Below, piece by piece: positions 2,345 to 47,827 of a stretch of DNA of 49,160 nt (position 1 is the stretch's first letter; each line of letters begins with the position of its first letter). The stretch lies in assembly GCA_026708545.1 (NCBI GenBank), contig JAPOUT010000120.1:1-49160 (forward strand). Direction: 5' to 3'. The DNA is from Hyphomicrobiales bacterium. Lineage in GTDB: Bacteria > Pseudomonadota > Alphaproteobacteria > JAPOUT01. The notes below the pieces were generated by a model, which was not told where the DNA came from, did no database searches, and was given only the letters and a program-made list of their open reading frames with translations. The position numbers and the translations under genes were made by a program.

Positions 2345-2374
2345 TTGATTTCGGGTTGACGGTTATGGTATAAT
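2345..2374 (+). promoter_or_regulatory. sigma70-like promoter
   Basis: TTGATT (2345-2350), an 18-base spacer and a perfect TATAAT (2369-2374). A possible ATG at 2373 overlaps the -10 box, so a protein starting there could not be made from this promoter. The hairpin-rich tract directly downstream is the more likely product. Confidence 0.5.
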
Positions 2375-2380
2375 GGAACC

Positions 2381-2504: not shown

Positions 2505-2628
2505 GACAATGTGTGGATCGACGGAAGGAGATGTTTTCAGCGGCAAGCAATCACTTTTATCAGACAAGATTCTTTAACGATCTTTTGTTAATTCTTCGCT
2601 GCGTTTCGTAGGGTTTGGACGGCGGGGG

Positions 2629-2754
2629 ATGTTGGAGGTTTACCAAAAACTCTACGATACGACCGCCAGCATTCCCCCGTCGTTCCTTGATGATGGCGAA
2701 CCGACAGTGTTATTCGTCAAAATGCCGGCGGGGCAGCCGCAAGTGCTTCGATGA
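2629..2754 (+). CDS. possible 41-residue small protein, unknown
   Basis: An ATG at 2629 opens a 41-codon frame with a plausible hydrophilic sequence (starts MLEVYQKLYD, ends MPAGQPQVLR). There is no clear ribosome binding site, only G-rich sequence before the ATG. It may be a remnant, since the neighbourhood between 2500 and 2920 otherwise has no convincing gene. No function is proposed. Two small hairpins follow at 2881-2896 (TGACG/CGTCA) and 2899-2915 (ACGCCC/GGGCGT), neither with a T run. Confidence 0.2.
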   Translation: MLEVYQKLYDTTASIPPSFLDDGEPTVLFVKMPAGQPQVLR

Positions 2755-2925
2755 TTTTGGGAAGGCCTTTGTGAAAGAAGGCCGGTGGAGCGCCGGAGAG
2801 TTGGTTCCCGGCGGCCTCCGGAAAATCAGCGGCAGCAAACGTATCAGAGAATTTCTTCCAAACCAAAACGGCTCTTGATTTGACGCCGCAACGTCATTAC
2901 GCCCCTCCCGGGCGTTCACCCTGCA

Positions 2926-4284
2926 TCAATCCAAAAGATTTGCTTCAAACGGATAGCGGGTCAGGTTTTCGCAGCCGTTTTCGGTGATAACAACCTGATC
3001 TTCCAGTTTGACGCCTTCTTTACCGTCGACTTCGCCGACATATGCCTCAACACACAGGCACATGCCGGGTTCCAGAACGCCTCCGTAGCCATGCTCTTCC
3101 ATATCTTCGGGATAACGAATCGAAGGATATTCATCACACAGCCCGACACCATGCATCATGACACTGTATCGTCGGGCTCTATACTCTTCGGGCAAAACAA
3201 GGCCGGCTTGTGTTACTTCGCGAAGACTCATTCCCGGTTTCAGAATGCCCGCGTTATACTGGATATGCTCATAAGCCGCCCGATAGAGTTTCTTTTGCTC
3301 GTCTGTCGGCTTTGCATCACCGATCATCCATGTGCGCGACAAATCCGCACAGAAACCGTAAGGTCCTATCAAATCCGTATCAAAGGCCAGCAATTCGCCG
3401 TTCCGGACGACACGCGGGCCGCATTCCTGAAACCACGGGTTCGTGCGCGGCCCGGAAGAGAGGAGACGGCATTCAATCCATTCTCCGCCGCGGCGAATAT
3501 TTTCTGCATGTAAGACCGACCAGATGTCGTTTTCCGTCACGCCCGGCACCGTGGCCTCCCGCATCATCTCCATGGAAATTTCGGTGGAGGCGATGGAAAA
3601 ACGCATAGCGTTCAACTCGTCTTCCCCCTTGACGGCCCGGGCCAGCTCCATAACCTCCTGGCCGTCAAAAATCTCAAAACCCAGATTGTCCAATTCACGC
3701 AAACCGGCAATTTCAATCTTATCGACTGCGAGACGCTTGTTTTCACCCGCATGCTCCTTGACCAGTGCGGCAAGGTCGTTGGCGAAACGGCGGGCATGTT
3801 CGGGAGTTCGATCGCCGGTTTCAAAATAGAAAAAAGAAGCACCGCTGCGAACTTCCTTCACCAACGGCAAATGAGCCGAAAGATGGTCGCAGTTGTGAAA
3901 ATCCCACAAGACCATGTATCCGGACGCCGATACAAAACAGGCCCGCGCATGGTTATGGATAATCCACACCTGCATGTTGCTTGTATCGCTGGCATAACGG
4001 ATATTCAGGGGATCAAACAGCAAAACACCCGCCAAATCCCGCTTCTGAAGCTGCGCAACAATCCGTGCGAGGCGGTATTCTCTCATGCGGGGAAGAATTG
4101 GAACGGTTAAGCCGAGTTCTTCCGCCTCGCGAAACGCCAAATCGGTTGGGCCGGTTTCAACGCGGTCGTTGTCATTCTCCGACCCGTCGGCTTTCCTAGT
4201 GGCGTCAATTGACGCATTTTCCGGATTAAAAGCGCCCGCGCGCCGACGAATGGGGTCTATTTTTTTATTTGGTGGAATATTCAT
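2926..4284 (-). CDS. dddP: DMSP lyase DddP, M24 metallopeptidase fold
   Basis: DddP cleaves dimethylsulfoniopropionate to dimethyl sulfide and acrylate in the cytoplasm of marine bacteria. The 452-residue protein has the family stretches NIRYASDTSNMQ and GEWIECRLLSSGPRTNPWF. All six metal ligands known for DddP are present at the exact family spacing: Asp302, Asp304, Asp314, His378, Glu413 and Glu428. The aspartate assigned as catalytic base is also present (Asp384). These features separate it from ordinary Xaa-Pro peptidases. I chose the ATG at 4284 because GGAGG lies 7 bases upstream and the protein then starts like known DddP. An in-frame TTG 12 codons earlier is less likely. It is followed on the same strand by no gene and preceded by a methyltransferase gene. 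Confidence 0.93.
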   Translation of the reverse strand: MNIPPNKKIDPIRRRAGAFNPENASIDATRKADGSENDNDRVETGPTDLAFREAEELGLTVPILPRMREYRLARIVAQLQKRDLAGVLLFDPLNIRYASDTSNMQVWIIHNHARACFVSASGYMVLWDFHNCDHLSAHLPLVKEVRSGASFFYFETGDRTPEHARRFANDLAALVKEHAGENKRLAVDKIEIAGLRELDNLGFEIFDGQEVMELARAVKGEDELNAMRFSIASTEISMEMMREATVPGVTENDIWSVLHAENIRRGGEWIECRLLSSGPRTNPWFQECGPRVVRNGELLAFDTDLIGPYGFCADLSRTWMIGDAKPTDEQKKLYRAAYEHIQYNAGILKPGMSLREVTQAGLVLPEEYRARRYSVMMHGVGLCDEYPSIRYPEDMEEHGYGGVLEPGMCLCVEAYVGEVDGKEGVKLEDQVVITENGCENLTRYPFEANLLD

Positions 4285-4342
4285 TCTTTCGCCTCCAAAA
4301 AGACTCTTGCCGGCAGGCAACCCGGCGGGAACAACTGCACCG

Positions 4343-4372
4343 GAATTGGAAAATTCCTTCCAATTCTTGGAA
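4343..4372. promoter_or_regulatory. overlapping perfect inverted repeats upstream of dddP
   Basis: GAATTGGAA (4343-4351), a 6-base spacer and TTCCAATTC (4358-4366) form a perfect inverted repeat. Its right arm is reused in a second perfect one, TTCCAA-TTC-TTGGAA (4358-4372). The pair sits about 60-90 bases upstream of the dddP ATG, a sensible place for a repressor or activator site. No cognate regulator gene is visible next to it. Confidence 0.5.
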
Positions 4373-4422
4373 CGCGTGCTCGATCTGACATTTGCGGCAT
4401 AACCTTCGTCCTCGGAACCCTG

Positions 4423-5115
4423 TTATGCGGAGACGTCGGCGGAGACGGACATGTTTTCGTAAAGGGCTAAAAAACGACGAACAGGCGGAAATTCATCATC
4501 GTAAAAATCTTGAATCTTTCCGGCCAACTTAATGGAACTTAAGGGAGGATCGAGTTCGTCTATCGTCAACGGCCACGGCATTCTTCCGGGATTATCTTCC
4601 GCATTGCGCGCACAGCTGATCAGTAAAATCTTTCCCTTCGGAGAAACGAACCGGCACATATGTGAAAACGCATCTCTGCGCATGGAACCGGGCAGGACCT
4701 GGAGTGTGTAAATCTCCAATACAAAATCGAATTGTCCGTAAAATTCTTCAGGGGATTCAAAAAGATTAAGGGTTCGCCAATCAACAGGGAGGCAGGGAAA
4801 ACGCTTTTTGCACTCCTGAACGGCCCGCTCTGAAATATCAAAGGCCGTGACCTGAAAACCTTGTTTTGCGAGATACGCGGCGTCATCGCCAAGACCGCAA
4901 CCGACAACAAGCGCTTTGCAAGGCGCCGGCTTGTGTTTCTTAAACCATTTTAGAAAAATTGGGTTCACGACCCGCTCGACCCACGGGATGCCGATCTTGT
5001 TTTCACCATAAAGCTCGTATGCCAGGTCAAACCATGACAGAGGCCGCCCGCTTTCAACATATTGAGCGGCAAGTTCACGTATTGATTCCCGGCAGGAATG
5101 TGTCTTCGCAGGCAT
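4423..5115 (-). CDS. class I SAM-dependent methyltransferase
   Basis: A 230-residue protein with the Rossmann motif I VVGCGLGDDAAYL, an acidic motif II (VTAFDISERAV) and an LNLF-x-FDFVLEIYTLQVL segment resembling the thiopurine/thiol methyltransferase branch. It would transfer a methyl group from S-adenosylmethionine to a small acceptor. The acceptor cannot be read from the sequence. It lies upstream of dddP on the same strand with a 138-base gap containing the palindromes, so cotranscription is possible but a sulfur or thiol role is only inference. The start is uncertain: ATG at 5115, or GTG at 5121 two codons earlier; neither has a strong ribosome binding site. Confidence 0.75.
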   Translation of the reverse strand: MPAKTHSCRESIRELAAQYVESGRPLSWFDLAYELYGENKIGIPWVERVVNPIFLKWFKKHKPAPCKALVVGCGLGDDAAYLAKQGFQVTAFDISERAVQECKKRFPCLPVDWRTLNLFESPEEFYGQFDFVLEIYTLQVLPGSMRRDAFSHMCRFVSPKGKILLISCARNAEDNPGRMPWPLTIDELDPPLSSIKLAGKIQDFYDDEFPPVRRFLALYENMSVSADVSA

Positions 5116-5222
5116 TGTCACGCACTTGTTTCGGCAACGGCGTTGGTTCGGATTACCTTAAACATTTCCTTGAATTTGTCCAGCATTGTTCCGCATCCTC
5201 CATATCCGGCCATATCGGAATT

Positions 5223-5251
5223 TTGAGAATTTCACAAAGTTTGGCTATAGT
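5223..5251 (+). promoter_or_regulatory. sigma70-like promoter for cysK-alaX
   Basis: TTGAGA (5223-5228), 17-base spacer, TATAGT (5246-5251), giving a leader of about 48 bases before the cysK ATG at 5307. Confidence 0.5.
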
Positions 5252-5306
5252 TTCCTTTCCACAAGGGGGACCATCACTCACACAGACGATTCGAGTCGCA
5301 ACACCC

Positions 5307-6317
5307 ATGCCCGACTATCCCGATATTATCAACCTCATCGGCAACACGCCACTCATTAAGCTCAAACGCGCATCCGAGGAGACCGGCTGCACCATCCTCG
5401 GGAAGGCCGAGTTTCTCAATCCGGGGCAATCGGTCAAGGACCGCGCCGCCCTCTATATCATACGCGATGCCATGAGGCGGGGAAGCCTGCGCGAAGGCGG
5501 AACCATCGTTGAGGGGACCGCGGGAAACACCGGCATCGGACTCGCCATGATAGCGAACGCCCTGGGCTTTCGCACGACCATTGTCATCCCCGAGACGCAA
5601 TCCGAAGAGAAAAAAGACGCCCTTCGAACACTGGGCGCCGAACTCGTCCAAGTGCCCGCCGTGCCGTATAAAGACTCAAACAATTATGTCAAATATTCCG
5701 GCAGACTCGCCGAAGAGTTGGCGAAGTCGCAAGCCGCGGGTGCAATTTGGGCAAACCAGTTCGATAACGTCGCCAACCGCCAGGCCCACATTGAGACGAC
5801 TGCGCCGGAAATCTGGAACGACACAAACGGTAAAATCGACGGCTTCGCGTGTGCGGTGGGGACCGGCGGAACGCTTGCCGGCATCTCCATGGAGTTGAAG
5901 GAACGCAACTCCGGCATCAAAATCGCCCTTGCCGACCCGATGGGCGCGGCTCTCTACAACTACTACTCTTTCGGCGAGTTAAAATCCGAAGGCGACTCCA
6001 TCACCGAAGGCATCGGGCAGGGACGCATCACCGCCAACCTGGAAGGCGCCGACGTTGATATCGCCTTTCAAATCAGGGACGAAGAAGCGCTTCCCATCGT
6101 CTTTAACCTCGTCCAAGAAGAAGGGCTGTGCATGGGCGGCTCAAGCGGCATCAACATTGCGGGCGCCGTGAGACTTGCAAAGGAGATGGGTCCCGGGCAT
6201 GTCATCGTAACCGTTTTGTGCGATTATGGCACAAGATACCAAAGCAAACTCTTCAACCCCGACTTCCTCAAGTCCAAAAACCTACCGTATCCGAAATGGA
6301 TGGAGAAAACATCATGA
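5307..6317 (+). CDS. cysK: cysteine synthase (O-acetylserine sulfhydrylase), PLP-dependent
   Basis: This 336-residue fold-type II PLP enzyme makes cysteine from O-acetylserine and sulfide. Visible motifs are NPGQSVKDR with the PLP lysine Lys44, the substrate loop TAGNTGIGLA (71-80), the phosphate-binding GTGGT (185-189) and GGSSG (277-281). The subgroup carries the phrase GELKSEGDSITEGIGQGR, also found in cystathionine-synthase-like members, so exact substrate use is less certain than the fold. The start at 5307 gives the usual N terminus (PDIINLIGNTPL); upstream in-frame starts would add an unrelated extension. It overlaps alaX by the four bases ATGA, so the two are translationally coupled. 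Confidence 0.9.
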   Translation: MPDYPDIINLIGNTPLIKLKRASEETGCTILGKAEFLNPGQSVKDRAALYIIRDAMRRGSLREGGTIVEGTAGNTGIGLAMIANALGFRTTIVIPETQSEEKKDALRTLGAELVQVPAVPYKDSNNYVKYSGRLAEELAKSQAAGAIWANQFDNVANRQAHIETTAPEIWNDTNGKIDGFACAVGTGGTLAGISMELKERNSGIKIALADPMGAALYNYYSFGELKSEGDSITEGIGQGRITANLEGADVDIAFQIRDEEALPIVFNLVQEEGLCMGGSSGINIAGAVRLAKEMGPGHVIVTVLCDYGTRYQSKLFNPDFLKSKNLPYPKWMEKTS

Positions 6318-7054
6318 CCGAAAAAACCGAAGAATTATTTCGAGAAAACGCCTACCTCAAGGAAGCGCAAGCATGCGTCAAAGACGTCATCGATTTGGAT
6401 GATGGCGCATGCGGCGTTCTGCTCGATCGCACCGTCTTCTATCCCCTCGGCGGAGGCCAGCCCGGCGATACCGGACACCTCATTGACCTGGAAAGCAACA
6501 ACCGCGTTGATGTCATCGATACGCGTAAAAACCTCCCCCAGGCAAGCGGCGAGATTGTGCATCTGCTTGCTCCCGGAAGCGTGCCCCTTGCATCCGGCGC
6601 GAAAGTCTCTCTTCACATCGACTGGGAGCGACGCTACAAGCACATGCGAATGCACAGTTGCATGCATCTTCTCTCCGCTATTCTGCCATGGCCCGTGACC
6701 GGCGGACAAGTCGGAACCGAAAGCGGACGTATCGATTTTGACATTCCCGAAGCCATCCTCGACAAACAAGAGATAACCGAAAAACTCAACCAGCTCATCC
6801 AGAAAGACAGCAAAGTCACGTCACGCTGGATCAGCGCGCAGGAACTCGCGGACAATCCGTCACTTGTTAAAACCATGTCGGTCAAACCGCCGACCACCGG
6901 CGGGCGTGTAAGGCTCATCGAGATCGAAAACTGCGACCTGCAACCGTGCGGCGGAACGCACGTCAAGCAGACCGCAGAAATCGGCAAAGTCGAAATTAGA
7001 AAAATTGAAAAGAAGGGCGCGCAAAACCGCCGCGTGCGAATCGCCTTTCTATAG
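6314..7054 (+). CDS. alaX: alanyl-tRNA editing protein AlaX
   Basis: AlaX is a free-standing version of the AlaRS editing domain that hydrolyses Ser-tRNA(Ala) or Gly-tRNA(Ala). The 246-residue protein has the GGGQPGDTG loop (47-55) and the zinc site His114/His118 (HSCMH) with Cys212/His216 (CGGTH). The length fits the AlaX-M type. The ATG overlaps the cysK stop as ATGA. The last codons overlap the convergent gene ending at 7049 by six bases. Confidence 0.9.
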   Translation: MTEKTEELFRENAYLKEAQACVKDVIDLDDGACGVLLDRTVFYPLGGGQPGDTGHLIDLESNNRVDVIDTRKNLPQASGEIVHLLAPGSVPLASGAKVSLHIDWERRYKHMRMHSCMHLLSAILPWPVTGGQVGTESGRIDFDIPEAILDKQEITEKLNQLIQKDSKVTSRWISAQELADNPSLVKTMSVKPPTTGGRVRLIEIENCDLQPCGGTHVKQTAEIGKVEIRKIEKKGAQNRRVRIAFL

Positions 7055-7459
7055 GCGCTGATACCAACCCGTCAGTATCAACGCGCCAAGGAGAAAGGTG
7101 ACAAACCCGCTGATGCGCAGTTGTGCGCACAAGGATTGTTCCTCTTGCGAAGCCATAGCCGCAATCATCGCGCCGAACGCCCTCGGTGCCAATATCGACA
7201 AAACGCCTTTGGCGGTCGAGAGCAATCCGACAATCGTGAGCACCATCGCCAAGCCGTCCCAGCGCCAGTGAAATCCCAGGATGAATGCACCGAATGACAG
7301 GCTGAGCCAACCAATCAGCAATGTCACGGAAGTCGCCTTCTCGCTGATATCGCGCAACAGTTGGACAACGTTGCGCGGCTGCAACAGAGACGCCAACGAG
7401 ACAACGACAAGCGTAAGCCCGACCCAAAAAGATATGCCTTGTTCAATGATAGGAGACAT
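7049..7459 (-). CDS. small membrane protein with four predicted helices
   Basis: 136 residues with about four hydrophobic segments (near residues 7-28, 44-62, 66-85 and 113-133). There is a strong AAAGGAGG before the ATG at 7459. I do not recognise a named family; it resembles short uncharacterised inner-membrane proteins of alphaproteobacteria. It converges on alaX with a six-base overlap and appears monocistronic. Confidence 0.7.
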   Translation of the reverse strand: MSPIIEQGISFWVGLTLVVVSLASLLQPRNVVQLLRDISEKATSVTLLIGWLSLSFGAFILGFHWRWDGLAMVLTIVGLLSTAKGVLSILAPRAFGAMIAAMASQEEQSLCAQLRISGFVTFLLGALILTGWYQRL

Positions 7460-7998
7460 AACGGTTCCTCCTTTACCGAGAGAGTGAACACGCCCCCTCT
7501 TGCACGGCCATTCTAACCCGACAGCGCCGCAATTACAAGAACGGAAATGTTTGTGCATCCCCGCAACGGAAGGATTTCAAAATGAAATGTGTATTTCTCG
7601 CAGCTTGCGTGAATAGAAAGAAAGCTTCCAAAATACCGGCGGAGAAACTCTATATCTCGGACTGGTTTCGAAAAGCAAGCAGGCCGGTCAAGGCAACAGG
7701 ATGCCCCTGTCATTCTGTCTGCCGAATCTGGTTTGCTCGCTCCCGATAAGGCCATCAAGAATTACAATCGAACATTGAGCGGAAAGTCTTCCAAAGTGCT
7801 CAGGAAGCGGTTGGGGACAGTTTCCTCTTTTCAGCATTCTTGACAAAATTTCTAAAACCTTCAAAAAAGAGGAAAAACTTTTTAAATCTTTGATGTCGCC
7901 GTTTTTGAAAAAATTATCTTTTTATATCAATAGGTTACGATATATTTTCCGATATTTTGCCCTTGGGATTCACGGGATTTTTAAAACTTTTTAAATGT
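7460..7998. other. intergenic, becoming AT-rich, no gene seen
   Basis: I see no convincing coding frame. 7830-7998 is strongly AT-rich and lies just downstream of the Schlafen-like gene that ends at 7999. No clear terminator hairpin with a T run. Confidence 0.5.
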
Positions 7999-9453
7999 TT
8001 AAGCCCAAATAGGTACATAACCGGAACGAGGATGCTCCGGGTCTAGGGATTTGATCCATTCCTCATTGAGGGCATCCCCGATAACTCCGGAGGCGAAGGC
8101 GCTGCTACTGCCGTTACCCGACAACCCAAGCCGGTCTCTCAACGTAGCGTTCGTCATCCTTCCATCCTCCAAATACGTGATAACCGCATGCTGGTAGCAG
8201 GCGCGCACACGCTCCGGCTTTGACATCTGCCTGAAATCCCTGGGACCATGGAGAATGACCTGTGTTGAGTCGTTGCCGACCCTGAATTCCGGTGGCGGAG
8301 ATTTATAGGATTCTTTTATTACTATATCCACTCCGCTTCCCCGCTCTTCACAAAAATCCATTCGACGCATCAAATCAGCCAGTTTCTGATTACGAGAGCG
8401 CGGAGATGAATCTATCATCCGGTCGGGTGCGATAAGCGATTCCCCGGGATTGTCGATTTGCAGCCTGTTGCGAAACACATAAATTTGCGGACCCGCACCG
8501 GTGATATGAAAATCCTGATGGACGAGGGCATTCACCAGCAATTCGCGGGTGGACCGCTTGGGAAAATCGGGTATGTCCTCCCTGTACGAGTTACCGACCT
8601 CTTCTCTCACATGCACGTGATCATAAATCCGGTCCAGGATATTATCGAAATCCAGGACATATCCCCTTTCTCCATCTCTTTTATCCTTCACGTCACTGGT
8701 CTTGCCATCACCTCTATAAACCGCCAAGCGTATCCCCTTGCGTGCCATGGATACACCAAAATTCGATAAATTTCTGGCAAACAGAATTGCGCCAAGATTG
8801 GTAATGTCCCATTTGCCTGCGTCGTTTTTTCGGATAATTCCTTCCGCCTCCAGTCTTTCGCAAATTTCCTCCGAGTTTGTCGGCTTGGGTTTTTTCATGC
8901 GTTCAAAGTATTTTTCCCAATCAAGCAAATCAAGCACTAGGTCCTGCTCCAAATGTTCCTTGGCCGCGGCTTCTTCCCAATTGAATTTCCCGAGCCGGGA
9001 AATCAGTTTTTCGTGCACCTGCCGATGTTGCCGTAAATTTGAAACAGAGTTGCCTATACGAACATAATTTGTGTTGCGAAAAGCCGTCGGCACGCCAACC
9101 GCCGCCGACACTTCCAAGAGAACCACCCTGCCTTGCGGGTGCGTTATTTCCTTGAATTCAAACGAGGGGCAGGGATCCAACATCCTTGCTAAATAGATAG
9201 GCAAATCCTGATTGCCGTGTTTTACGGTTTCATGATTAAAAGGGGTGCCCACTATCTGGCGGGATTTATCATCAACGCCCCAAATGACATATCCGCTGTC
9301 CCGACCAACCAAAGCCGCACCATTCGAAAGAGCCGAGCACAACTTACCTATTGCCTCAGAGTCTGAAACCCCGACCTTAAATTCAAGCCATTCTGATTCA
9401 TTATTTCTCCGAAGTTCATCAACAAGATCGATATCGCGCGTGTCGGTTGTCAT
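7999..9453 (-). CDS. Schlafen AlbA_2-HATPase ATP-binding regulator-like protein
   Basis: 484 residues. The N terminus has the Schlafen/AlbA_2 signature (SEWLEFKVG, then GG/GRDSGYVIWGVDD around 50-60). Residues about 290-400 resemble the divergent HATPase_c_4 module (RSTRELLVNALVHQDF, DNPGE, EERGSGVDIV). The C terminus (about 430-475) looks like a winged helix (TNATLRDRLGLSG). Such proteins are annotated as ATP-binding transcriptional regulators, and related ones occur in defence islands. Here it stands alone between gene-poor flanks, more AT-rich than the neighbouring core genes, which suggests horizontal acquisition. Role is not inferable beyond the domains. Confidence 0.8.
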   Translation of the reverse strand: MTTDTRDIDLVDELRRNNESEWLEFKVGVSDSEAIGKLCSALSNGAALVGRDSGYVIWGVDDKSRQIVGTPFNHETVKHGNQDLPIYLARMLDPCPSFEFKEITHPQGRVVLLEVSAAVGVPTAFRNTNYVRIGNSVSNLRQHRQVHEKLISRLGKFNWEEAAAKEHLEQDLVLDLLDWEKYFERMKKPKPTNSEEICERLEAEGIIRKNDAGKWDITNLGAILFARNLSNFGVSMARKGIRLAVYRGDGKTSDVKDKRDGERGYVLDFDNILDRIYDHVHVREEVGNSYREDIPDFPKRSTRELLVNALVHQDFHITGAGPQIYVFRNRLQIDNPGESLIAPDRMIDSSPRSRNQKLADLMRRMDFCEERGSGVDIVIKESYKSPPPEFRVGNDSTQVILHGPRDFRQMSKPERVRACYQHAVITYLEDGRMTNATLRDRLGLSGNGSSSAFASGVIGDALNEEWIKSLDPEHPRSGYVPIWA

Positions 9454-36954: not shown

Positions 36955-37656
36955 CTAAATAGGATTTTTGTCGTCCGGACGATAGCGCGGGGCGCCCCAG
37001 TCCTTGTCGGGGTTTTTCAGCATCAGGTCAATGCAGACGGGTAGGAACGGCTCCATAATCGTTACGCCGCGAAGCAGTGCATTGCGATTTTTCCCGCTGT
37101 CATGCGTGGCGCTCCCGTGTATCAATTGGTTGCGCAGAACACAGAGGCGGTTGAAAACCGTGGAGACCAAAACCTTTGGCATCCTTTTTTCCTTTTGCAG
37201 ATTATTGAAGGTTCGCGCTTTGGTGAATGTACGTTTGTGCGCCCTACACTCCTCGCGCCATTTGTCCTGCACGACGCGGGCGGTTTTGGATTTCCAAAAA
37301 AATTCAAAGAGATATTCGTCTTCCACCAGCAAGCGACCCGCTTCAAAAATTTCTCCTTCCCAAAAAAATCCGTGGATACGGTCCTTGTCCAGAGATACGA
37401 GAACATTAAGATATTCCAGTATTTCTTTGAAGGTCTTTGATGCATCCTGGCCGCCGGCAACCGCATCAGGTTCCCTGGCATAAAGCGAATTGAATCCTAT
37501 CCAAAGAAAGATGAAGCGCGCGTCCAAATCATCGGACAGCTGTTCCGCCCGCCTCCCCCAGCTAATGGCACGATGGAGACGCAAGCGCAGAGACTGCAAT
37601 TCTTCGGGAATTTCGCGCTTCTTCTTATTGAGTCTTTCATAATCCTGTATGTCCAT
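36955..37656 (-). CDS. HEPN-domain protein, first paralogue
   Basis: 233 residues. Near the C terminus R-N-Q-L-I-H (Arg175-His180) is the R-x4-H active-site motif of HEPN ribonucleases, within a helical FNRLCVLRNQLIHGSAT context. The N-terminal part (LRLHRAISWGRRAEQ...FLWIGFNSLYAR) is shared with the protein at 40391-41074. HEPN proteins with this motif usually cut RNA as toxins or defence effectors. No MNT nucleotidyltransferase antitoxin is adjacent. More AT-rich than the bioY operon it converges with. Confidence 0.7.
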   Translation of the reverse strand: MDIQDYERLNKKKREIPEELQSLRLRLHRAISWGRRAEQLSDDLDARFIFLWIGFNSLYAREPDAVAGGQDASKTFKEILEYLNVLVSLDKDRIHGFFWEGEIFEAGRLLVEDEYLFEFFWKSKTARVVQDKWREECRAHKRTFTKARTFNNLQKEKRMPKVLVSTVFNRLCVLRNQLIHGSATHDSGKNRNALLRGVTIMEPFLPVCIDLMLKNPDKDWGAPRYRPDDKNPI

Positions 37657-37803
37657 AAATCACCTAATCAACACTAAAAAACAAAGCGGGAATTCTTGCC
37701 GTTCACAAATTAAAAAAGATAGCCACCTAAGTAACTATACGACACATGCGGGGCTTTGGGCTGATTCGGGGGTGATTCGCAATTTTTGTTGTATTTTTGC
37801 CGG

Positions 37804-37918
37804 TCACCCAGTAGGGTGATTCGGTCGTCTACGGACCAACCGACCCAGAGGTGGGGTATGAAGAGGAATCCTCTCTAAACTGGCACGAGGCTGATTCGTC
37901 GGAATGTGAATCGCCTCG
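37804..37918 (+). repeat. cluster of four small inverted repeats with GATTCG copies
   Basis: Hairpins TCACCC-AGTA-GGGTGA (37804-37819), TCGGT/ACCGA (37821-37843), AGAGGA/TCCTCT (37862-37874), and CGAGGC-t-GATTC/GAATC-GCCTCG (37886-37918, 11 pairs with one bulge). TGATTCG recurs four times between about 37750 and 37900. It may be the 5' part of the structured RNA that follows, or a separate control region. Confidence 0.5.
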
Positions 37919-38778: not shown

Positions 38779-38820
38779 TGTCAAATGGGGAAGAATGGGA
38801 TAACCCATTTGACACTTTTT
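38779..38820 (+). terminator. intrinsic transcription terminator
   Basis: TGTCAAATGGG (38779-38789) pairs perfectly over 11 bases with CCCATTTGACA (38804-38814), then C and TTTTT, then more pyrimidines. No protein gene lies upstream on this strand for over 1.8 kb, so the transcript it ends must come from the gene-free tract. Confidence 0.8.
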
Positions 38821-38848: not shown

Positions 38849-38933
38849 GCGGACGTGGCGGAATGGTAGACGCGCTGTCTTGGAAAGGTAGTGGGCTTGT
38901 TCCGTGAGGGTTCGACTCCCTCCGTCCGCACCA
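38849..38933 (+). tRNA. tRNA with leucine-type body and GGA anticodon
   Basis: 85 bases with encoded CCA. The acceptor stem GCGGACG/CGTCCGC is perfect. The D arm GCG-GAATGGTAGA-CGC is leucine-like. The anticodon stem is CTGTC/GGTAG with two G-U pairs, and the loop TTGGAAA puts GGA at 38882-38884. A long variable arm is present and the T arm GAGGG-TTCGACT-CCCTC is perfect. The discriminator at 38930 is A, as in leucine tRNAs; serine tRNAs have G. GGA would read UCC/UCU serine codons. Identity is therefore ambiguous: a Leu(GAG)-like body with a Ser(GGA)-like anticodon loop. Confidence 0.85.
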
Positions 38934-39011: not shown

Positions 39012-39086
39012 ATGATAACAAAAGCAAAGCAGTTAACAACAGCCGTAAAAAACTTGGAAAACGACCTATGGAAATTAACAAGGTAG
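39012..39086 (+). CDS. possible 24-residue leader peptide
   Basis: ATG with GGAGA five bases upstream opens a 24-codon frame that overlaps the start of the ATPase frame by 19 bases. It is basic (MITKAKQLTTAVKNLENDL...). It may couple translation to the ATPase or be chance. An inverted repeat ACCAAT/ATTGGT (38962-38987) lies just upstream. Confidence 0.3.
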   Translation: MITKAKQLTTAVKNLENDLWKLTR

Positions 39087-40226
39087 TAATATCGGAACTC
39101 ATTAACGCTGCGATGTCTGCAGACTATACTGCCGTGCGGCGCCTTGGTAGAGACATCGCACGACAACTCGCATCCCAAGGTGACCAGGAAGGTGCAAAAT
39201 GTATACAATCTATTTTGCGGAAACGTGGAGTTCCCCTTCAATCCTCCGGATACGCCGAAGCACTTCCACGTGATAGCGCATCACACCTGCCTCTCGTTGA
39301 AGAGGGCCAACCGTTAACCACGCCCGTGATGCTGAACGGCGAGTCTGGCGCGACAATCTCCGAGTTCGTTAATGATGCGAAGCACATTGATCTACTGAGC
39401 AAAAGAGGCGTTGCATCTCAGCTCAGGCTTCTTTGTATGGCCCACCTGGGACTGGCAAAAGCCTCCTTGCAGGGCATGTGGCAACACTCCTTGATCGACC
39501 TTTCTACATTGCACGGCTGGACTCCCTAATCTCATCTCGTCTTGGCGAAACAGCAAAAAATATCAGGAGTATCTTTGATTACGTCCCTTCAAAAGAAGCC
39601 GTTCTCTTCCTTGATGAGATTGACTCAATCGCCAAAGTTAGAGATGATCGACATGAACTTGGCGAGTTGAAACGCGTCGTCAATACAGTGCTTCAAGGTC
39701 TAGATTCACTGACGGACGATGTCATTACCATAGCGGCGACCAATCATCCTCATCTGCTCGATTCTGCGATATGGCGTCGCTTCCCCTACAAGGCGGAAAT
39801 CAATCTTCCCGATGGCGATGTGCGTGAAAGTTTGTGGTTGCATTTTCTTTACCAAGATGATGAAACGCGGCGGAATGAAGCTGCGCTTCTCGCAAAGGTT
39901 TCGGATGGTTTAAATGGGTCCGATATCGAAAACATCGGGTTGGCAGCAAGACGGCGCGCCATCCTCTCTGGCGAGGAATCCTCACTGATTAAAATTTTGT
40001 TGGCGGTCTCGAAGTCAAGTTCAAGCAGTGCACGTCTAATCAGTAGTGATGACCCGAACACACAGGCAAAAAAACGGTGAGCATCTTACTCAGCGAAAAA
40101 GGCGGAATCAGCCAAGCTGAAATTGCTCGAATTGTCGGCGTCAGCCGCCAGATGATAAATAAGTATCTGAAAGAAGCGAGGATGACTGAATCTCCACCCC
40201 CTCCTAAAACTGCTTTTGCACCCTAG
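39068..40226 (+). pseudogene. AAA+ ATPase with C-terminal HTH, frameshifted
   Basis: The N-terminal frame (from ATG 39068) reads to SQLRLL at about 39433 and then leaves register. The ATPase core continues one base back: YGPPGTGKSLLAG (Walker A), AVLFLDEIDSIAK (Walker B), ITIAATNHP (sensor 1), AIWRRF (arginine region). The switch point, a short T run before Walker A, looks like a one-base deletion. The core frame stops at 40078-40080 right after seven A residues. The next frame encodes a helix-turn-helix tail (SQAEIARIVGVSRQMINKYLKEA) to 40226. Coding-like sequence in a further frame runs to 40317. The closest type is stand-alone AAA ATPases of mobile or defence loci. Either decayed or containing one sequencing error plus one programmed shift. 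Confidence 0.7.
40068..40074 (+). promoter_or_regulatory. A_AAA_AAA slippery heptamer before a stop codon
   Basis: In the ATPase frame the codons are GCA AAA AAA CGG TGA. The seven A residues match the classical -1 frameshift site exactly in phase. A -1 slip joins the ATPase to the HTH tail. A possible stimulatory pairing (TCAGC/GCTGA around GGC/GCC) begins about 17 bases downstream. Confidence 0.4.
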
Positions 40227-40390: not shown

Positions 40391-41074
40391 CTACTTTTCT
40401 ATTACGGGATAGAACGGTTTCCCCCAAGATTCATCAGGATTTTCCATCATGAGGTCAATGAAGATGGGAAGCATCCAATCCATTATCTCCGCGCCGGCGC
40501 TCACTTGCTCTCGATTGACACTACCATTCCAAGTAGCACCGCCGTGCATCAACTGATTGCGTAACGTATAAAGATTATCAAAAACTTCCGTTAGAAGCAG
40601 AGCCGTGTTCATTTCTTTTCTGGCACGGTTAAATCTGCGCCCCCTCCTACTCAAACTCTCGTTCCAATCGTCTTTACCCGGTTTGCCGTGAACATGATCC
40701 CAGAAGGGAGTAAAAACAAATTTATTTTTCACCCACTTGGGAGTAGGCGTATCTTTTTGGAAAAACTTCTCCCAAACAGCATCATAAACGCGATTGCTTC
40801 CATCAATGCTCACGAGAGTTTTGAAATAGCTTCTAAACACATTCCTATCTGGAGGACCTGAATCACCTCTGGCAAACTCGGAAGGTATCCGGGTATAGGC
40901 CGCGTTGAACCCAATCCAAAGCAAAAGGAAGCGAACATCTACATCCTTGGTTTCTTTTTCAGCGCGCAATCCCCAACTGATTGCGCGATGAACGCGCAAA
41001 CTCAGGTCATCGGGAAACCCGTCTTGCAGGTCGTGCTGCTTGTCTTTAAGAGTTTTGAAATTCAACTTGTCCAC
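40391..41074 (-). CDS. HEPN-domain protein, second paralogue
   Basis: 227 residues from a GTG at 41074. I chose it because the preceding TAGGGTGGTTT and the next residues align with TAGGTGATTT and the ATG of the first paralogue. Shared blocks are LRVHRAISWGLRAEK, FLLLWIGFNAAYTR, TLRNQLMHGGATWNGS (R-x4-H, Arg172-His177) and FIDLMMENPDESWGKPFY. Middle parts differ, so the two copies diverged long ago. They face the same way and bracket the RNA/tRNA/ATPase segment. Confidence 0.7.
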   Translation of the reverse strand: MDKLNFKTLKDKQHDLQDGFPDDLSLRVHRAISWGLRAEKETKDVDVRFLLLWIGFNAAYTRIPSEFARGDSGPPDRNVFRSYFKTLVSIDGSNRVYDAVWEKFFQKDTPTPKWVKNKFVFTPFWDHVHGKPGKDDWNESLSRRGRRFNRARKEMNTALLLTEVFDNLYTLRNQLMHGGATWNGSVNREQVSAGAEIMDWMLPIFIDLMMENPDESWGKPFYPVIEK

Positions 41075-41106
41075 AAACCACCCTACGGCTGACAACAACT
41101 TACGGC

Positions 41107-42147
41107 TTAATTATTCCAGTCTAGCACAACCTTGCCGGAATTCCCCCCTATCATTTCGCCGAAACCTTCCTCAAAATCCTCGGCGGAGAAGCGGTGCGTG
41201 ATGATGGGAGAGATATCGAGGCCGCTTTCAAGCAGGGCTATCATCTTGTACCAAGTCTCGAATATCTGGCGCCCATAGACCCCCTGGATGGTGAGGGATT
41301 TGAAAACGATGGGCGTCCAGTCAACGGTCGATACGCCCTTCGGAATTCCGAGCATGGCGATTCGCCCGCCCGTTATCATGGATTCGACCATTTGCTCAAA
41401 AGCCTGCTCGTTGCCGGACATTTCAAGTCCGACATCGAAACCTTGCTTCATGTCGAGGGTTTTGATGACATCGCGTAAATCTGTGTCGGTGACGTTGACG
41501 GTTACGACGTCGCTCAGTTTGGCGGCAAGATCGAGACGCTGTTGATTGACGTCTGTGATAACGGTATGCCGCGCGCCGATGTGCTGCACGACGGCCGCGG
41601 CCATAATGCCGATGGGTCCCGCGCCGGTGATGAGCACATCCTCGCCGACAAGGTCGAAGAGCAATGCCGTGTGCACAGCGTTGCCGAGCGGATCGAGGAT
41701 GGCGCCGATGTCGTCGGTAATGGCATCGGGCAACGGCACAACGTTGAACGCGGGGAATTTCAAATACTCGCAGAAGGCCCCGTCAACATTGACCCCAATG
41801 CCGTGGGTTTCGGGGTCGAGATGGAATCGTCCGGCTCGTGACTGCCTCGATTGGCGGCCAATTAAATGACTTTCGCCGGAAACCCTTTGTCCAACTTTAA
41901 GGTTTTTGGCGTTGCATCCGACTTCGGCAATTTCACCGACGAATTCGTGCCCGATGATGAGTCCTATCGGAATGGTTTTTTGCGCCCACTCGTCCCAATT
42001 CCAAATATGGATATCGGTCCCGCAGATTCCGGTTTTGGCGATTCGGATGAGAACGTCATCATCGCCAATCTCGGGGACGGAACGCTCTTCCATCCAAAGT
42101 CCGGTTTCGGGTTTCGACTTTACCAGGCATTTCATTGTTTCAATCAT
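41107..42147 (-). CDS. tdh: L-threonine 3-dehydrogenase lacking the structural zinc site
   Basis: 346-residue medium-chain dehydrogenase oxidising threonine to 2-amino-3-ketobutyrate with NAD. Catalytic zinc residues are intact (Cys42 in ICGTD, His67-Glu68 in GHE) as is the GAGPIG nucleotide loop. The structural zinc lobe, normally four cysteines, reads [24 protein letters not shown]: Gly97, Ser100, Ser103 and Asp111 stand where cysteines are expected, with spacing unchanged. The ATG overlaps the kbl stop (ATGA), so both are cotranscribed. Confidence 0.9.
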
Positions 42148-43343
42148 GTGATGACTCCAAGTTGTCGACCGACTTCGGCAAAGGCGGCTAGTGCGGTGTC
42201 CAGGTCCTCGCGTGTCAGGGCTGCATTCATCTGCGTCCGGATGCGTGCGGCTCCGAGAGGCACGACCGGATAGATAAAGCCGACAACGTAGACACCACGT
42301 TGATAAAGTTGCTGCGACATTTCCTGACTTAACCGCGCGTCTCCAAGCATGACCGGAACGATGGGATGCTCGCCGGGCAACAGCGTAAAACCGAGCTTGG
42401 AAAGTCCCGCGCGCCAGTAGTTTGTAGCATCGAAAAGTTGTTTACGCAACATGTCACCCTCTTCGACCAATTTCAGGGCCTCAATACTCGCGGCAACGAC
42501 CGTGGGCGGCAGAGCGTTGGAGAAGAGATAGGGACGCGCACGCTGGCGCAAGAGGTTGATGACCGGTTTTGACGCGGCGACGTACCCGCCGAGCGCGCCG
42601 CCCAAAGCTTTGCCGAGCGTTCCGGTTATGATATCGACTTCAACACCATGGTGCGACGGCGTTCCCGCACCCTTCGAGCCAATGATTCCGGTTGCGTGGC
42701 AATCATCGACCATCACGACAGCATCATATTTTTTCGCGAGTCGTGCGATGTCGGGAAGTTTGGCAAGGGTTCCGTCCATGGAGAATACGCCATCGGTGGC
42801 AATCATGATGAAACGCGCACCGGCTGCGCGTGCCTCTTTCAACTTCGACTCGAGATCGTCCATATCGCAATTGGCGAAGCGATACCGCCGTGCTTTGCAC
42901 AAACGAATGCCATCAATGATGGATGCGTGGTTCAAACTGTCAGAAACCACCGCGTCTTCTTCCGTCAACAAAGGCTCGAAGAGTCCGCCATTGGCATCGA
43001 AGCATGCAGCAAACAAAATCGCGTCGTCATGCCCGAGGAATTGCGCCAGCGCAGTCTCAAGTTCCCGATGCAGGTCCTGCGTGCCGCAAATGAACCGAAC
43101 GGACGCCATGCCGTATCCGTGATCGGACATAGCGCGGGTGGCCGCTTCGATGAGACGCGGATGGTTTGCGAGTCCCAAGTAATTGTTCGCACAAAGATTG
43201 ATGACTTCCCGCTCCTCGCCGTCGCGCCGCACGCTGACCCTCCCTGCCTGTGCGGAGGTAATCAGGCGCTCGCGCTTGGTGAGCCCCTCCGCCTCGATTT
43301 CGGCCAGGATGCCGTCAAGATGATTGCGAAATTCTTCTGTCAT
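42144..43343 (-). CDS. kbl: 2-amino-3-ketobutyrate CoA ligase (glycine C-acetyltransferase)
   Basis: 399-residue PLP enzyme that splits the Tdh product with CoA into glycine and acetyl-CoA. The PLP lysine is Lys245 in GTLGKALGG, with VDDCHATG upstream. The start at 43343 gives the family length. TATAAT (minus strand, 43356-43351) ends only seven bases before that ATG, so the mRNA may be leaderless. A more upstream ATG at 43352 overlaps the -10 and is unlikely. Confidence 0.93.
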
Positions 43344-43452
43344 GCCGTCCATTATACCACGCCGATTTTTTTGCGTGTGCGGCAATTATATCTAGACTCC
43401 CGGCGCGACTCTCGATTAATCTTCGGGAGGCACAAAACACGGAGAAATTGAT

Positions 43453-45873
43453 ATGAAGTCGCACTATCGGGTTGTCGTAATTGGCGGCGGGGTTGTCGGT
43501 TCATCGGTGTTGTATCACCTCGCAAAGTTTGGCTGGACTGATGTCTGCCTGTTGGAGAGATCGGTATTGACGGCCGGTTCGTCATGGCATGCGGCGGGCG
43601 GGATACACGCGCTGAATGCGGACCCGAACATGGCGGCACTTCAGGCTTACACCATTGATCTTCTTTCCGAAATCCAGGAAGAATCGGGACAGGACATCGG
43701 CCTGCACATGACCGGCGGACTGGTGCTTGCCGGAACGCCGGAGCGATGGGAATGGCTGCAGTCCAACTACCGCGTGTTTCAATCGATTGGAATTGAAGAC
43801 TGCCGACTGGTTACACCGGAAGAGGCGGCAGAATTGAATCCGATTATGAGTCCCGACGGCCTCGAAGGAGGCATGTGGGCGGACCGCGAGGGCTACGTTG
43901 ACACGACCGGCACGGTTCACGCATACGCGCGCGCGGCAAAAAACCGCGGTGCGGAATATTTCGAACATACACGCGTCGAATCTCTGGAACGCGCGGCGGA
44001 CGGCTGGCGTGTCGTTACGGACAAAGGCGTTGTAACTTGCGAGCATGTCGTGAACGCGGCGGGCCTGTGGGCAAAGCAGGTCGGACGGATGGCCGGGATT
44101 GAATTGCCGGTTTCTCCGCTCAAGCACCATTACCTCGTCTCGGACAGCATTCCGGCGCTGGAACAAATGGATTCCGAGGTTCCCATGTGCGTGGACCTGG
44201 AAGGCTTCACTTATCTGCGCCAAGACCAAAAAGGCGTGCTGCTCGGCATTTACGAAATCGAGCATGAACACTGGGCGATGGACGGCGCACCGTGGGACTA
44301 TGGAATGGAATTATTCCAGGAACAAACCGAGCGGCTCGAAAACGAATTGACGTTGGCTTTTGCACGCTATCCGGTTCTGAACGAAGTCGGCGTTAAGACC
44401 TGGGTAAACGGCGCGTTTACATTTTCGCCCGACGGCAACCCGCTGGTCGGGCCGGTGCGGGGCGTGCGGGGCTACTGGTGCGCCTGTGCGGTGATGGCGG
44501 GCTTCCTGCAGGGCGGAGGCGTGGGCAAGACGCTTGCGGAGTGGATGATATTCGGCGAGCCCGAGGCGGATGCATGGGCGATGGATGTGGCGCGCTACGG
44601 CGACTATGCCCGCAACAAGCGATTCATTAAAGAAACGACCGGGCAGTTTTATTCGCGCCGGTTTGTGATGACGTATCCCAACGAACAACTCCCGGCGGGA
44701 CGTCCGTTGAAAATGTCGCCGGCCCACAGCGACATGACGGCCGCGGGAGCCCGCTGGGGCGAGAGTTACGGCCTCGAGGTTCCGCTGTATTTTGCGCCCG
44801 ACGGTTTTGAGGAAACACCGACGCTGAAACGCTCGAACGCCCACGACATTGTCGCGGGGGAATGCCGGGCGGTGCGCGAGGCCGTCGGCCTGCTGGATAT
44901 TTCGGGATTCTCCCGCTTCGAGGTAACGGGAGAACAGGCGCAGGCCTGGCTGGACGAAACAATGGCGTGCAAGCTCCCCGCTCCCGGACGCGCCCGCCTT
45001 GCGCCCATGCTCGCACCGAACGGGCGGCTCAAGGGCGATCTAACGTTGTTCAACTGGGGAAACGGCGTTTGGTGGATTATGGGCTCGTATTATTTGCGCG
45101 AGTGGCACCTGCGCTGGTTTCACGAGCATATGCGCGAAGGCGTCGCATTGCGCGACATCTCGGATGCGGTGATCGGCTTTTCGCTCTCGGGACCGAACAG
45201 TTTGAAAGTGATGGAGCGCGTCGTCACCGACGGCGACATCAAGGAGTTGAACTTTATGGGTTGCGGCGCGTTTGACATCGGACTCATCCGCGCGAAGGTC
45301 GGACGTCTTTCGGTGATGGGCGAGCTGGGCTACGAGATTCACTGCAATGCCGGCGAGCATATCGGCCTGCGGCGCCTGCTGCTTGAAGCCGGCGAAGGGT
45401 TGGGCTTGCGCGAGGTCGGTTACAACGCATTATTGTCGCTGCGGCTGGAAAAGAGTTTCGGCATTTGGTCGAAAGAGTTCACGCAGGGCTACACTCCCGC
45501 ACAAACCGGAATGGACAGGTGGATTGCGTGGGACAAGAATTGCGATTTCATCGGGCGCGATGCGGCCCTCAAGGAACGCGACACCAACAGCGCGACGCAG
45601 TTGCTCGTCACCCTTGAGATTTCGGACGGCAATGCCGATGCGGACGGCTACGAACCGGTGTGGAAGGACAACAAGCGCGTCGGTTTTATCACTTCGGGCG
45701 GTTACGGCCACACGCTCGGCAAATCGCTCGCGATGGCAATGGTCGCGCGCGAACACGCCGTTGAAGGCACGCAACTTACGACTCACGTTGTCGGCGTTGA
45801 GCGCAACGCACGCGTGATTGCGCATTCTCCTTATGATCCGGAAGGGCTTGCCATGAGGAACAAACCGTCATGA
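43453..45873 (+). CDS. dimethylglycine/sarcosine dehydrogenase-like flavoprotein
   Basis: 806 residues in two parts. Residues 1 to about 380 are an FAD-dependent DAO-type oxidase (VVVIGGGVVGSSVLYHLAKFG), with SSWHAAGG containing the histidine that carries covalent FAD in relatives. The rest, from about 420, is a GcvT-like folate-binding domain (LLDISGFSRFEVTGEQAQAWLD to a C-terminal GCV_T_C barrel), which catches the formaldehyde equivalent on tetrahydrofolate. It oxidatively demethylates an N-methyl compound; the exact substrate is not readable. Coupled by ATGA to the MttB-like gene. Confidence 0.88.
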   Translation: MKSHYRVVVIGGGVVGSSVLYHLAKFGWTDVCLLERSVLTAGSSWHAAGGIHALNADPNMAALQAYTIDLLSEIQEESGQDIGLHMTGGLVLAGTPERWEWLQSNYRVFQSIGIEDCRLVTPEEAAELNPIMSPDGLEGGMWADREGYVDTTGTVHAYARAAKNRGAEYFEHTRVESLERAADGWRVVTDKGVVTCEHVVNAAGLWAKQVGRMAGIELPVSPLKHHYLVSDSIPALEQMDSEVPMCVDLEGFTYLRQDQKGVLLGIYEIEHEHWAMDGAPWDYGMELFQEQTERLENELTLAFARYPVLNEVGVKTWVNGAFTFSPDGNPLVGPVRGVRGYWCACAVMAGFLQGGGVGKTLAEWMIFGEPEADAWAMDVARYGDYARNKRFIKETTGQFYSRRFVMTYPNEQLPAGRPLKMSPAHSDMTAAGARWGESYGLEVPLYFAPDGFEETPTLKRSNAHDIVAGECRAVREAVGLLDISGFSRFEVTGEQAQAWLDETMACKLPAPGRARLAPMLAPNGRLKGDLTLFNWGNGVWWIMGSYYLREWHLRWFHEHMREGVALRDISDAVIGFSLSGPNSLKVMERVVTDGDIKELNFMGCGAFDIGLIRAKVGRLSVMGELGYEIHCNAGEHIGLRRLLLEAGEGLGLREVGYNALLSLRLEKSFGIWSKEFTQGYTPAQTGMDRWIAWDKNCDFIGRDAALKERDTNSATQLLVTLEISDGNADADGYEPVWKDNKRVGFITSGGYGHTLGKSLAMAMVAREHAVEGTQLTTHVVGVERNARVIAHSPYDPEGLAMRNKPS

Positions 45874-47420
45874 CCGCTTCCCCCGCCCCCGCGCAATCCC
45901 GCCGTTCGCGCCGCCGCTCGCGCGACAAGGAGGCGACTACTTCCAAGCGCGATGTCAACTACCGGCAATTGAAAAACCCCTTCCCGCCCGTATCGGTCTT
46001 TTCGGAAGACGAGGCGATGAACATGCACGCTACTTCGCTGCGGCTACTCGAGGAACTCGGCATTCGCGTGCTGCTCCCCGAGGCTTGCGAGATTTTTGCG
46101 GCGGGAGGCGCGCGCGTTGAAGATGAAATGGTCTACATCGGACGCGACATGGTCGAGGCCGCGATTGCGAGCGCACCGAAGTCGTTTACCTGTCACGGAG
46201 GCTCAAAGCATCGGGATTTCACCCTGGAGCCGGGAGCGCTGGTGTTCCAGCCGGGCGCGGCCGCGCCCCATGCGAACGACCTCAAGCGCGGACGCCGCCC
46301 GGGCTCGGCGCGGGATTTCCGCGAATACACCCTCCTCACACAGCATTATGACGTGCTGCACATGATGTCGCCCTCGGTCGAGCCGCAGGACGTTCCGACA
46401 AACGTGCGCCACTATTACACGACCCGCACGCAGTTGGAGTTGACGGACAAGCTACCGTTCTTTTTCTCCCGCGGAAAGCCGCAGGCAATGGACAACTTCG
46501 AGATGCTTGCGATTGCGCGCGGTCTCACGGAGGAGGAATTGAAAGCCGGCGTGCACTCTTTCACGGTAATCAACACGAACTCGCCCCGGACGATCGACAT
46601 TCCGATGGCGCAGGGCTTGATGGATTTTGCCCGCCACGGACAGATGTCGATAATCACGCCGTTCACGCTGATGGGCGCGATGGCGCCGATAACGGTTGCC
46701 GGAGCGATCACGCTCAGCCATGCGGAAGCGATGGCCGCAATCACGCTCACGCAGCTTGCCAAGCCCGGTGCACCGGTGTGCTACGGGACGTTTACTTCCA
46801 ACGTTGACATGAAATCCGGGGCTCCAGCGTTCGGAACTCCGACCCATTTTCAAGCATCGCTGGCGGCGGGGCAGATGGCGAGGCTGCTGGGCCTGCCGTG
46901 GCGCTCGGCCGCGGGTTCGGCTTCCAACATTAATGACGTGCAGGCCGCGAACGAAAACCAATTCGGCCTGTGGGGGTGCCTGCTCGCGGGCACGACCGTC
47001 ATAATGCACGCGGGCGGCTGGCTGGAAGGCGGCTTGACGGTTTCATACGAAAAACTCGTCACGGATGTTGACGTGCTGAACATGGTTGCGGAGTTGTGCG
47101 CGGGCAACCGCGCGGGCGCCGACGAGATCGGGTTCGAAAAGGCACTCTCGCAGGTTAATCCGATGGGGCACTTCTTTGCCGCACCGCAAACGATGGAGCG
47201 TTACAACACGGAATTTTACGAACCGGTCGTTCACAGCTACGTTAACTTCGGCCGCTGGACAGAGGAGGGATCGCTTGATGCTAACACGCGTGCGACAAAA
47301 GTTTGGGAAAATATCGTAAACGCCGAACCCGAACGGATGCTTGCGCCCGAACGTATCGAAGCACTTGTGAAATTCGCCGAACGGCGCGAGAGCGAGGGCG
47401 GCGCGCCCCCGGAGAGTTAA
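45870..47420 (+). CDS. MttB-superfamily methyltransferase, non-pyrrolysine
   Basis: 516 residues with an arginine-rich N terminus (SRRSRRRSRDK) before the TIM-barrel methyltransferase (VFSEDEAMNMHATSLRLLEELGIRVL...). There is no in-frame amber codon, so it belongs to the group that includes glycine betaine, proline betaine and carnitine demethylases rather than true trimethylamine methyltransferase. Those act with corrinoid proteins, none of which is encoded here. Gene pairing with the flavoprotein suggests stepwise demethylation of a quaternary or tertiary amine. Confidence 0.85.
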   Translation: MTASPAPAQSRRSRRRSRDKEATTSKRDVNYRQLKNPFPPVSVFSEDEAMNMHATSLRLLEELGIRVLLPEACEIFAAGGARVEDEMVYIGRDMVEAAIASAPKSFTCHGGSKHRDFTLEPGALVFQPGAAAPHANDLKRGRRPGSARDFREYTLLTQHYDVLHMMSPSVEPQDVPTNVRHYYTTRTQLELTDKLPFFFSRGKPQAMDNFEMLAIARGLTEEELKAGVHSFTVINTNSPRTIDIPMAQGLMDFARHGQMSIITPFTLMGAMAPITVAGAITLSHAEAMAAITLTQLAKPGAPVCYGTFTSNVDMKSGAPAFGTPTHFQASLAAGQMARLLGLPWRSAAGSASNINDVQAANENQFGLWGCLLAGTTVIMHAGGWLEGGLTVSYEKLVTDVDVLNMVAELCAGNRAGADEIGFEKALSQVNPMGHFFAAPQTMERYNTEFYEPVVHSYVNFGRWTEEGSLDANTRATKVWENIVNAEPERMLAPERIEALVKFAERRESEGGAPPES

Positions 47421-47827
47421 TCCCGGAATTCATGCCGGGAAATTCAGGCTTCGGTTCGGCAATCCCCGTAAACTTGGCGGCGCTGTCTTGCCGGCGCACG
47501 CCCGCGCCATGGCAACCTTCCCGGGAACCCGTAAAACATTGCAGCCCGGCCGTCCCTGCCGACCGTACGGCGCCGTATGGGCTACGCCCGGCGGGTTTCG
47601 CACCAGGCGCTTTTTCCCGACAGTCGAAAGACCCGTCTAATTGCACAGACTTCGGTTTTTTCTACCTCAAGCGCAACCCCCTCATATCTAAAAAATCGGG
47701 CAAGACCCGAAAAAGACCACCTCTATCACATAAAGCCGTTGAAAGTTCTTCTTGGGACGGATAGGGCGCAATTATCGGTAACGGTTCGGTTTAATGGAGC
47801 GGCAAAACCACATTATTGATGCGGCGT
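47421..47827. other. intergenic with a short hairpin, no gene seen
   Basis: TCCCGG-N8-CCGGGA at 47421-47440 directly follows the mttB-like stop and could weaken transcription, but no T run follows. The remainder is G+C-rich then AT-rich with no convincing frame. Confidence 0.4.

Follow-up and report, generated by a model that had tools for sequence, protein, structure and literature searches.

What does a tRNA gene encode that is annotated as tRNA-Ser but carries a leucine-type body around its serine anticodon, and how did it come to stand where it does? The window, the whole stretch of 49,160 nt of DNA that we analysed, is contig C52 of its own genome assembly (G000; 2.26 Mb in 139 contigs, 90.8% complete). 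ARAGORN found one tRNA in the whole window and named it 'tRNA-Ser (gga)'; it scores 53.1 bits with the Rfam family RF00005 (gathering score 29). All of its stems are whole: acceptor 7/7 (GCGGACG/CGTCCGC), the 3-bp D stem 3/3, anticodon stem 5/5 (CTGTC/GGTAG, two G-U pairs) and T stem 5/5 (GAGGG/CCCTC), and the 3' end ACCA is encoded. It is an intact, well-formed class II gene with a leucine body and a serine-reading loop. A misassembly or read error in the GGA anticodon is conceivable; an independent copy on contig C60 likewise carries GGA.

We compared two isotypes only, leucine and serine, using covariance models built from 29 tRNA-Leu and 29 tRNA-Ser(GGA) genes, all from other alphaproteobacterial genomes. 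The window tRNA scored 80.7 bits with the leucine model and 43.8 bits with the serine model. The five tRNA-Leu genes of the same genome reached 82.8-98.9 bits with the leucine model and 30.1-41.9 bits with the serine model (three of five reported), while its three tRNA-Ser genes reached 42.6-44.8 and 73.6-98.2 bits, respectively. Since the serine training set consists of GGA loops only, the comparison is tilted toward serine, and despite this training the serine model stays behind by 37 bits on the window tRNA. The sequence-only reading had claimed a leucine-type body, the discriminator A73 and the serine loop TTGGAAA, and had expected leucine to win among isotype models; the body, A73 and the loop hold, and of the two isotypes compared serine does not come out best.

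The identity elements point in the same direction. As described in PMC9976931, tRNA-Leu of E. coli is recognised by A73, the A15-U48 pair, G18G19 and A20a, with anticodon and V arm unused, U8:A14 is a determinant for the LeuRS of A. aeolicus, and C2-G71 blocks SerRS. The window tRNA has A73, A15-U48, U8:A14, G18G19 and A20a, all leucine determinants that we checked from this source (PMC9976931), together with C2-G71, and its U8, A14, A15, U48 and A73 are the same bases in all five tRNA-Leu genes of its genome. The leucine anticodon base A35 is missing from its GGA, and so are the marks of a serine-type body: G73, a G15-C48-type core and a longer V arm stand against A73, A15-U48 and a V region of 14 nt. 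The gene is the sort that tRNAscan-SE 2.0 should mark with an 'isotype prediction disagreement', which denotes a conflict between anticodon and isotype model and is a flag, not a family (PMC8450103). In one fungal set described there, flagged genes proved to be repetitive elements (PMC8450103); this warning fits the pair of misfit tRNAs on contigs C60 and C124, described below, better than the window gene.

Could such a gene be the working serine tRNA of its genome, or could it even alter the genetic code? The assembly holds 32 RF00005 matches, 31 of them above cut-off. All of the leucine anticodons TAA, TAG, GAG, CAA and CAG are present, as are TGA, GCT and CGA for serine. Two GGA tRNAs were found, both of the leucine type, and no serine-type GGA tRNA, in an assembly that is 90.8% complete and from which many other tRNAs are absent too. 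The same-genus assembly G001, which also misses many tRNAs, likewise yielded no serine-type GGA tRNA, whereas a pattern search found one in 42 of 59 genomes, including the same-order G002 and G003. G002 matches the alphaproteobacterial record OY282459.1 without a difference over 7001 bases, which gives the class as Alphaproteobacteria. The contrast in serine-type GGA tRNAs speaks for a reading in which the window tRNA serves UCC and UCU as the genome's tRNA-Ser, charged with serine despite its body. We regard this as very unlikely: A73 and C2-G71 act against SerRS in the systems described in PMC9976931, the serine model scores far lower, and G001 does without such a gene as well. Moreover, both assemblies lack so many other tRNAs that the absence of tRNA-Ser(GGA) counts as weak evidence.

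A reassignment of UCC and UCU to leucine, to which the two leucine-type GGA tRNAs and the missing serine-type counterpart would lend themselves, is practically out of the question. Eighteen genes of the window use TCC and TCT at 16.5 and 3.4 per 1000 codons. Kbl has eight TCC/TCT sites, at five of which 10 or more of the 13 aligned relatives carry serine, and across the eight columns leucine occurs in 1 of 103 aligned cells, at the unconserved column 87. As the relatives hold serine there, UCC and UCU still mean serine at the conserved sites of this one gene, and we rejected a codon reassignment at these five positions.

Where, then, does the gene come from? Compared with each of the five tRNA-Leu genes of its genome, 5-10 of the 20 stem pairs have changed on both sides and none is broken; thus, the sequence diverged without loss of the fold, and the gene is not a recent mutant of a host tRNA-Leu. 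The closest tRNAs in G001 are the ordinary Leu(TAA) (80%) and Leu(TAG) (75%), with none nearer. The search of phage sequences gave its best matches in Roseobacter phage DSS3P8 and in Ruegeria phage V10, whose tRNA-Leu genes agree with the window tRNA at 83.5% over 85/85 bases; within a single alignment, the tRNA-Leu(CAG) of DSS3P8 reaches 83.5% identity with it and the Leu(TAA) of its own genome 76.5%. FastTree places the window tRNA among the phage tRNAs (support 0.92) and joins the C60/C124 pair to the Leu(TAA) of the genome (0.92), but these are 85-nt sequences, and since 85 bases carry little signal the phage descent is suggestive and not proven. The DSS3P8 gene (KT870145.1) shares the 5' strand of the anticodon stem, the T stem, A73 and CCA with the window tRNA; it differs in its cognate leucine anticodon CAG, which deviates from GGA at all three positions, and in its place within an array of 11 tRNAs. 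Provided that the tree is right, GGA apparently arose twice in leucine bodies of one genome.

The surroundings of the gene (Table 1) resemble an island. Upstream lies an operon for biotin carboxylase, carboxyltransferase and BioY, downstream lie dehydrogenase, glycine C-acetyltransferase and methyltransferase genes, and in between, within a stretch of lower G+C, one HEPN paralogue stands on each side of the tRNA, both on the minus strand. Relatives of the protein at 40391..41098 are mostly annotated as HEPN domain-containing protein (best 20 of 24 plasmid records); Pfam gave no match for either protein, so that the HEPN name rests on the plasmid annotation and on a stretch RNQLMHG, which we take to fit the HEPN signature. 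The IetA gene is split just before its Walker A motif, for which decay, a sequencing error or frameshifting are possible causes, and no IetS partner was noticed beside it. The terminator scan picked up the hairpin upstream of the tRNA, but found two sites where 4.0 were expected in shuffles. In a promoter scan, 52 upstream regions, those of the window and C60 misfits included, averaged 8/12 compared to 7.5 for shuffles, and the score of the window tRNA was not separable from background. In G001, contig C31 stops where the island begins and aligns to positions 41170-47426 of the window only (88.5%), and no match to the HEPN protein was found in that assembly. The earlier suggestion of an island setting is borne out: two HEPN genes and the broken IetA lie around the tRNA, and neither tRNA nor HEPN gene was seen in G001. 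A duplicated attachment site was considered and rejected, as the window holds no second tRNA 3' end with up to three mismatches allowed.

Table 1 Positions of the tRNA gene, its parts and neighbours in the window, and of related features elsewhere
Feature	Position	Strand	Evidence or remark
Leu-type class II tRNA gene, anticodon GGA, 85 nt including encoded CCA	38849..38933	+	ARAGORN, Rfam, covariance models, stem check
Anticodon loop TTGGAAA; anticodon GGA at 38882-38884	38880..38886	+	sequence, stem check
Variable region TGGGCTTGTTCCGT, short Leu-type V arm (GGG/TCC), 14 nt	38892..38905	+	stem check
HEPN-like protein, paralogue of 40391-41098 (38% identical)	36955..37656	-	protein comparison
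35-nt stretch, 86% identical to right end of C60 tRNA element	37787..37821	-	sequence comparison
Terminator-like hairpin, 11 bp stem and T run, ~28 nt before the tRNA	38779..38820	+	fold z-score -2.42; terminator scan
IetA-type anti-phage AAA ATPase, in two frames, short of the profile's C-terminus	39068..40080	+	profile matches
HEPN domain protein; relatives on 24 plasmid records	40391..41098	-	plasmid annotation
Copies of the inverted-repeat element	L068:6685-7277 and L069:1339-1948		hairpin, T run and Leu-type misfit tRNA
Six Leu-type tRNAs, very long V arm, anticodons CGC (4) and GCC (2)	G002:C1:1513000-1523500 (L383), 2298-8028		two groups, ~206-nt spacing
Leu-bodied GGA tRNA in two viral contigs	L457:747-838 and L458 near 1534-1566		acceptor helix seemingly lengthened; sequence shared by both contigs where read

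Two further misfits occur in the same genome. The one at C60:7022-7110 has a leucine body (62.0 versus 36.9 bits for serine), the anticodon GGA and no encoded CCA, with one of 20 stem pairs broken; the one at C124:1502-1584 (minus strand) has a leucine body (65.0 versus 25.4 bits) and the anticodon GAA, and its acceptor stem is disrupted, with five of 20 stem pairs broken. Each lies inside an element of ~600 bp that ends in inverted repeats (27 and 30 nt long, with 89% and 83% complementarity), and a hairpin with a T run directly precedes the tRNA in both. The two copies share 70% identity in an alignment of 540 columns, and G000-G003 yielded no other near-full copy; neither of the two holds a transposase, and the element had no match in the plasmid and phage collections. 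Their tRNAs apparently derive from the host Leu(TAA).

Against this background, we asked whether the window gene might be a silent relic of a phage or island, without transcript or function, whose anticodon drifted unselected. The broken IetA next to it, the hairpin just upstream, the lack of a clear promoter and the visible decay of the C124 misfit are consistent with this; the 20 of 20 intact stem pairs with their CCA end, and the presence of GGA in two differently derived leucine bodies, argue against it, and we consider a relic possible but rather unlikely. RNases of the HEPN type that cut tRNA exist, and the two HEPN genes and the defence ATPase around the tRNA give circumstantial support to the idea of a decoy or replacement tRNA, which draws off or survives an anticodon nuclease such as a HEPN RNase, whether encoded by the island or by a rival. 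This idea appears improbable to us, as the island's HEPN proteins have no known target, inspection by eye showed metabolic genes and no HEPN gene around the C60 and C124 relatives, and three plasmid relatives of the HEPN protein have no adjoining tRNA feature in a gene table that omits RNA genes.

How rare are such genes? The pattern GGTAGACRCN6YTGGAAA occurs in one of 191 related genomes, namely the own one, in two places, while its reversed control occurs in none of the 191. A wider pattern (leucine D arm, second anticodon base G, first C or G) was found in 5 of 385 members of the class, of which G000 and G002 remain because the other three show no T arm in the following stretch. The six G002 tRNAs score 70.9-75.2 bits as leucine and 33.3-37.2 bits as serine; some of them lie in ~206-nt repeats, and next to them are two long ORFs rich in repeats (1454 and 788 aa), which had no Pfam match and which from their make-up we take for autotransporters. 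A wide scan for leucine bodies in which position 35 is not A gave at least 121 matches in 119 genome_contigs stretches and at least 120 in 120 viral stretches. Among the matches listed, a stem filter left 55 distinct full tRNAs (26 bacterial, 29 viral); many of those filtered out look like intron-split tRNA-Leu genes, and Rfam confirmed no intron in the six intron-like loci scanned. One bacterial gene among the matches listed has GGA, in the gammaproteobacterial MAG L232 (leucine 69.9, serine 37.3 bits), and genes with a long V arm and GGA, GGC, CGC or GCC occur in the MAGs L232, L170, L250 and L251, whose isolate names presumably point to sponge hosts. The viral GGA tRNA on L457 scores 56.3 bits as leucine and 37.6 as serine and was not called by ARAGORN. 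Judged from these sequences, leucine-bodied misfits recur thinly in bacteria and viruses.

Two side observations were made in these assemblies. Three tRNA-like genes of 99-109 nt (L032, G000:C43:6800-6898; L142, G001:C104:86034-86142; G001:C22:47382-47490) seemingly carry their extra length in the anticodon loop, and ARAGORN calls L142 a Tyr(ata) with a 34-nt intron. The G003 assembly includes a mitochondrial genome (L414, G003:C34, 19573 bp, 24 tRNAs, COX1 and NADH dehydrogenase genes, code 4), which hints at an animal host.

But, what would a leucine tRNA with a serine anticodon do in its cell? The intact leucine fold with its serine anticodon, the absence from the G001 assembly, the island-like setting and the phage tRNA-Leu as nearest sequence found suggest that the gene is probably an accessory, phage-derived tRNA. 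We lean, by a modest degree, towards an accessory tRNA of mobile, most likely phage, descent that would be charged with leucine and would misread UCC and UCU if expressed. Following the known bacterial identity rules, LeuRS would be expected to charge it, since LeuRS relies on A73, A15-U48, U8:A14 and bases of the D loop and does not read the anticodon. If the gene is transcribed, leucine would enter at a minority of UCC and UCU codons, for which the normal serine tRNAs would compete with it, and the genetic code itself would remain unchanged. The systems discussed below offer two models for such a gene: nematode nev-tRNAs suggest that a cell might put up with it while its expression stays low, and tRNA-ProX that it might serve mistranslation at a low level. 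A broader scenario, which we think unlikely and in which mistranslation is conjectural throughout, holds that this order of Alphaproteobacteria repeatedly acquired leucine-bodied tRNAs whose anticodons are those of serine, alanine and glycine, and that they serve a regulated leucine mistranslation at small-residue codons, e.g. for variation of surface proteins; it would unite the window GGA gene of phage descent, the C60 GGA and C124 GAA genes from host Leu(TAA) in their inverted-repeat element, and the six CGC and GCC genes in the G002 repeats. If charged with leucine and used, the accessory tRNA of the window would provide a natural example, in a bacterium, of a mobile gene that places leucine at serine codons, and a leucine-type counterpart of tRNA-ProX hidden from anticodon-based annotation. 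A silent window gene would still demonstrate that genes of this kind are mislabelled as ordinary tRNA-Ser.

We recognised no leucine-type bacterial mismatch tRNA in the literature found, and found no paper on tRNA cassettes in integrons. A mismatch of body and anticodon as such is already known from tRNA-ProX, allo-tRNA and nematode nev-tRNA, and the window gene is a bacterial leucine-type variant of it. According to PMC4300185, the nev-tRNAs of C. elegans reach their mature form and can be charged with leucine in vitro, while misincorporation was undetectable in the proteome. They share with the window tRNA the V arm and an anticodon for another amino acid, with acceptance by LeuRS in vitro described for nev-tRNAs; unlike it, they are eukaryotic and carry CCC (Gly) or UAU (Ile) (PMC4300185). 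The leucine body with a non-leucine anticodon agrees with the nev-tRNA type and the bacterial contig does not. The tRNA-ProX of Streptomyces and Kitasatospora mistranslates by experiment; in E. coli, each of its three forms proved toxic, and two of them conferred resistance to carbenicillin (PMC10365949). As described there, it resembles the window gene as an accessory gene with the body of one amino acid and the anticodon of another, annotated by that anticodon, and it differs in its proline body, its frequent position beside its own synthetase ProRSx and its demonstrated mistranslation (PMC10365949). The window tRNA has a leucine body, and NCBIfam identified no synthetase among ten neighbouring proteins. 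Allo-tRNAs are likewise bacterial class II tRNAs with non-cognate anticodons, and one decayed copy overlaps a transposon-related gene (PMC7609411). In the description of PMC7609411, they have serine (or alanine) identity and a 12-bp acceptor branch of 8/4 or 9/3, whereas the window tRNA combines its leucine body with seven acceptor and five T-stem pairs (7/5).
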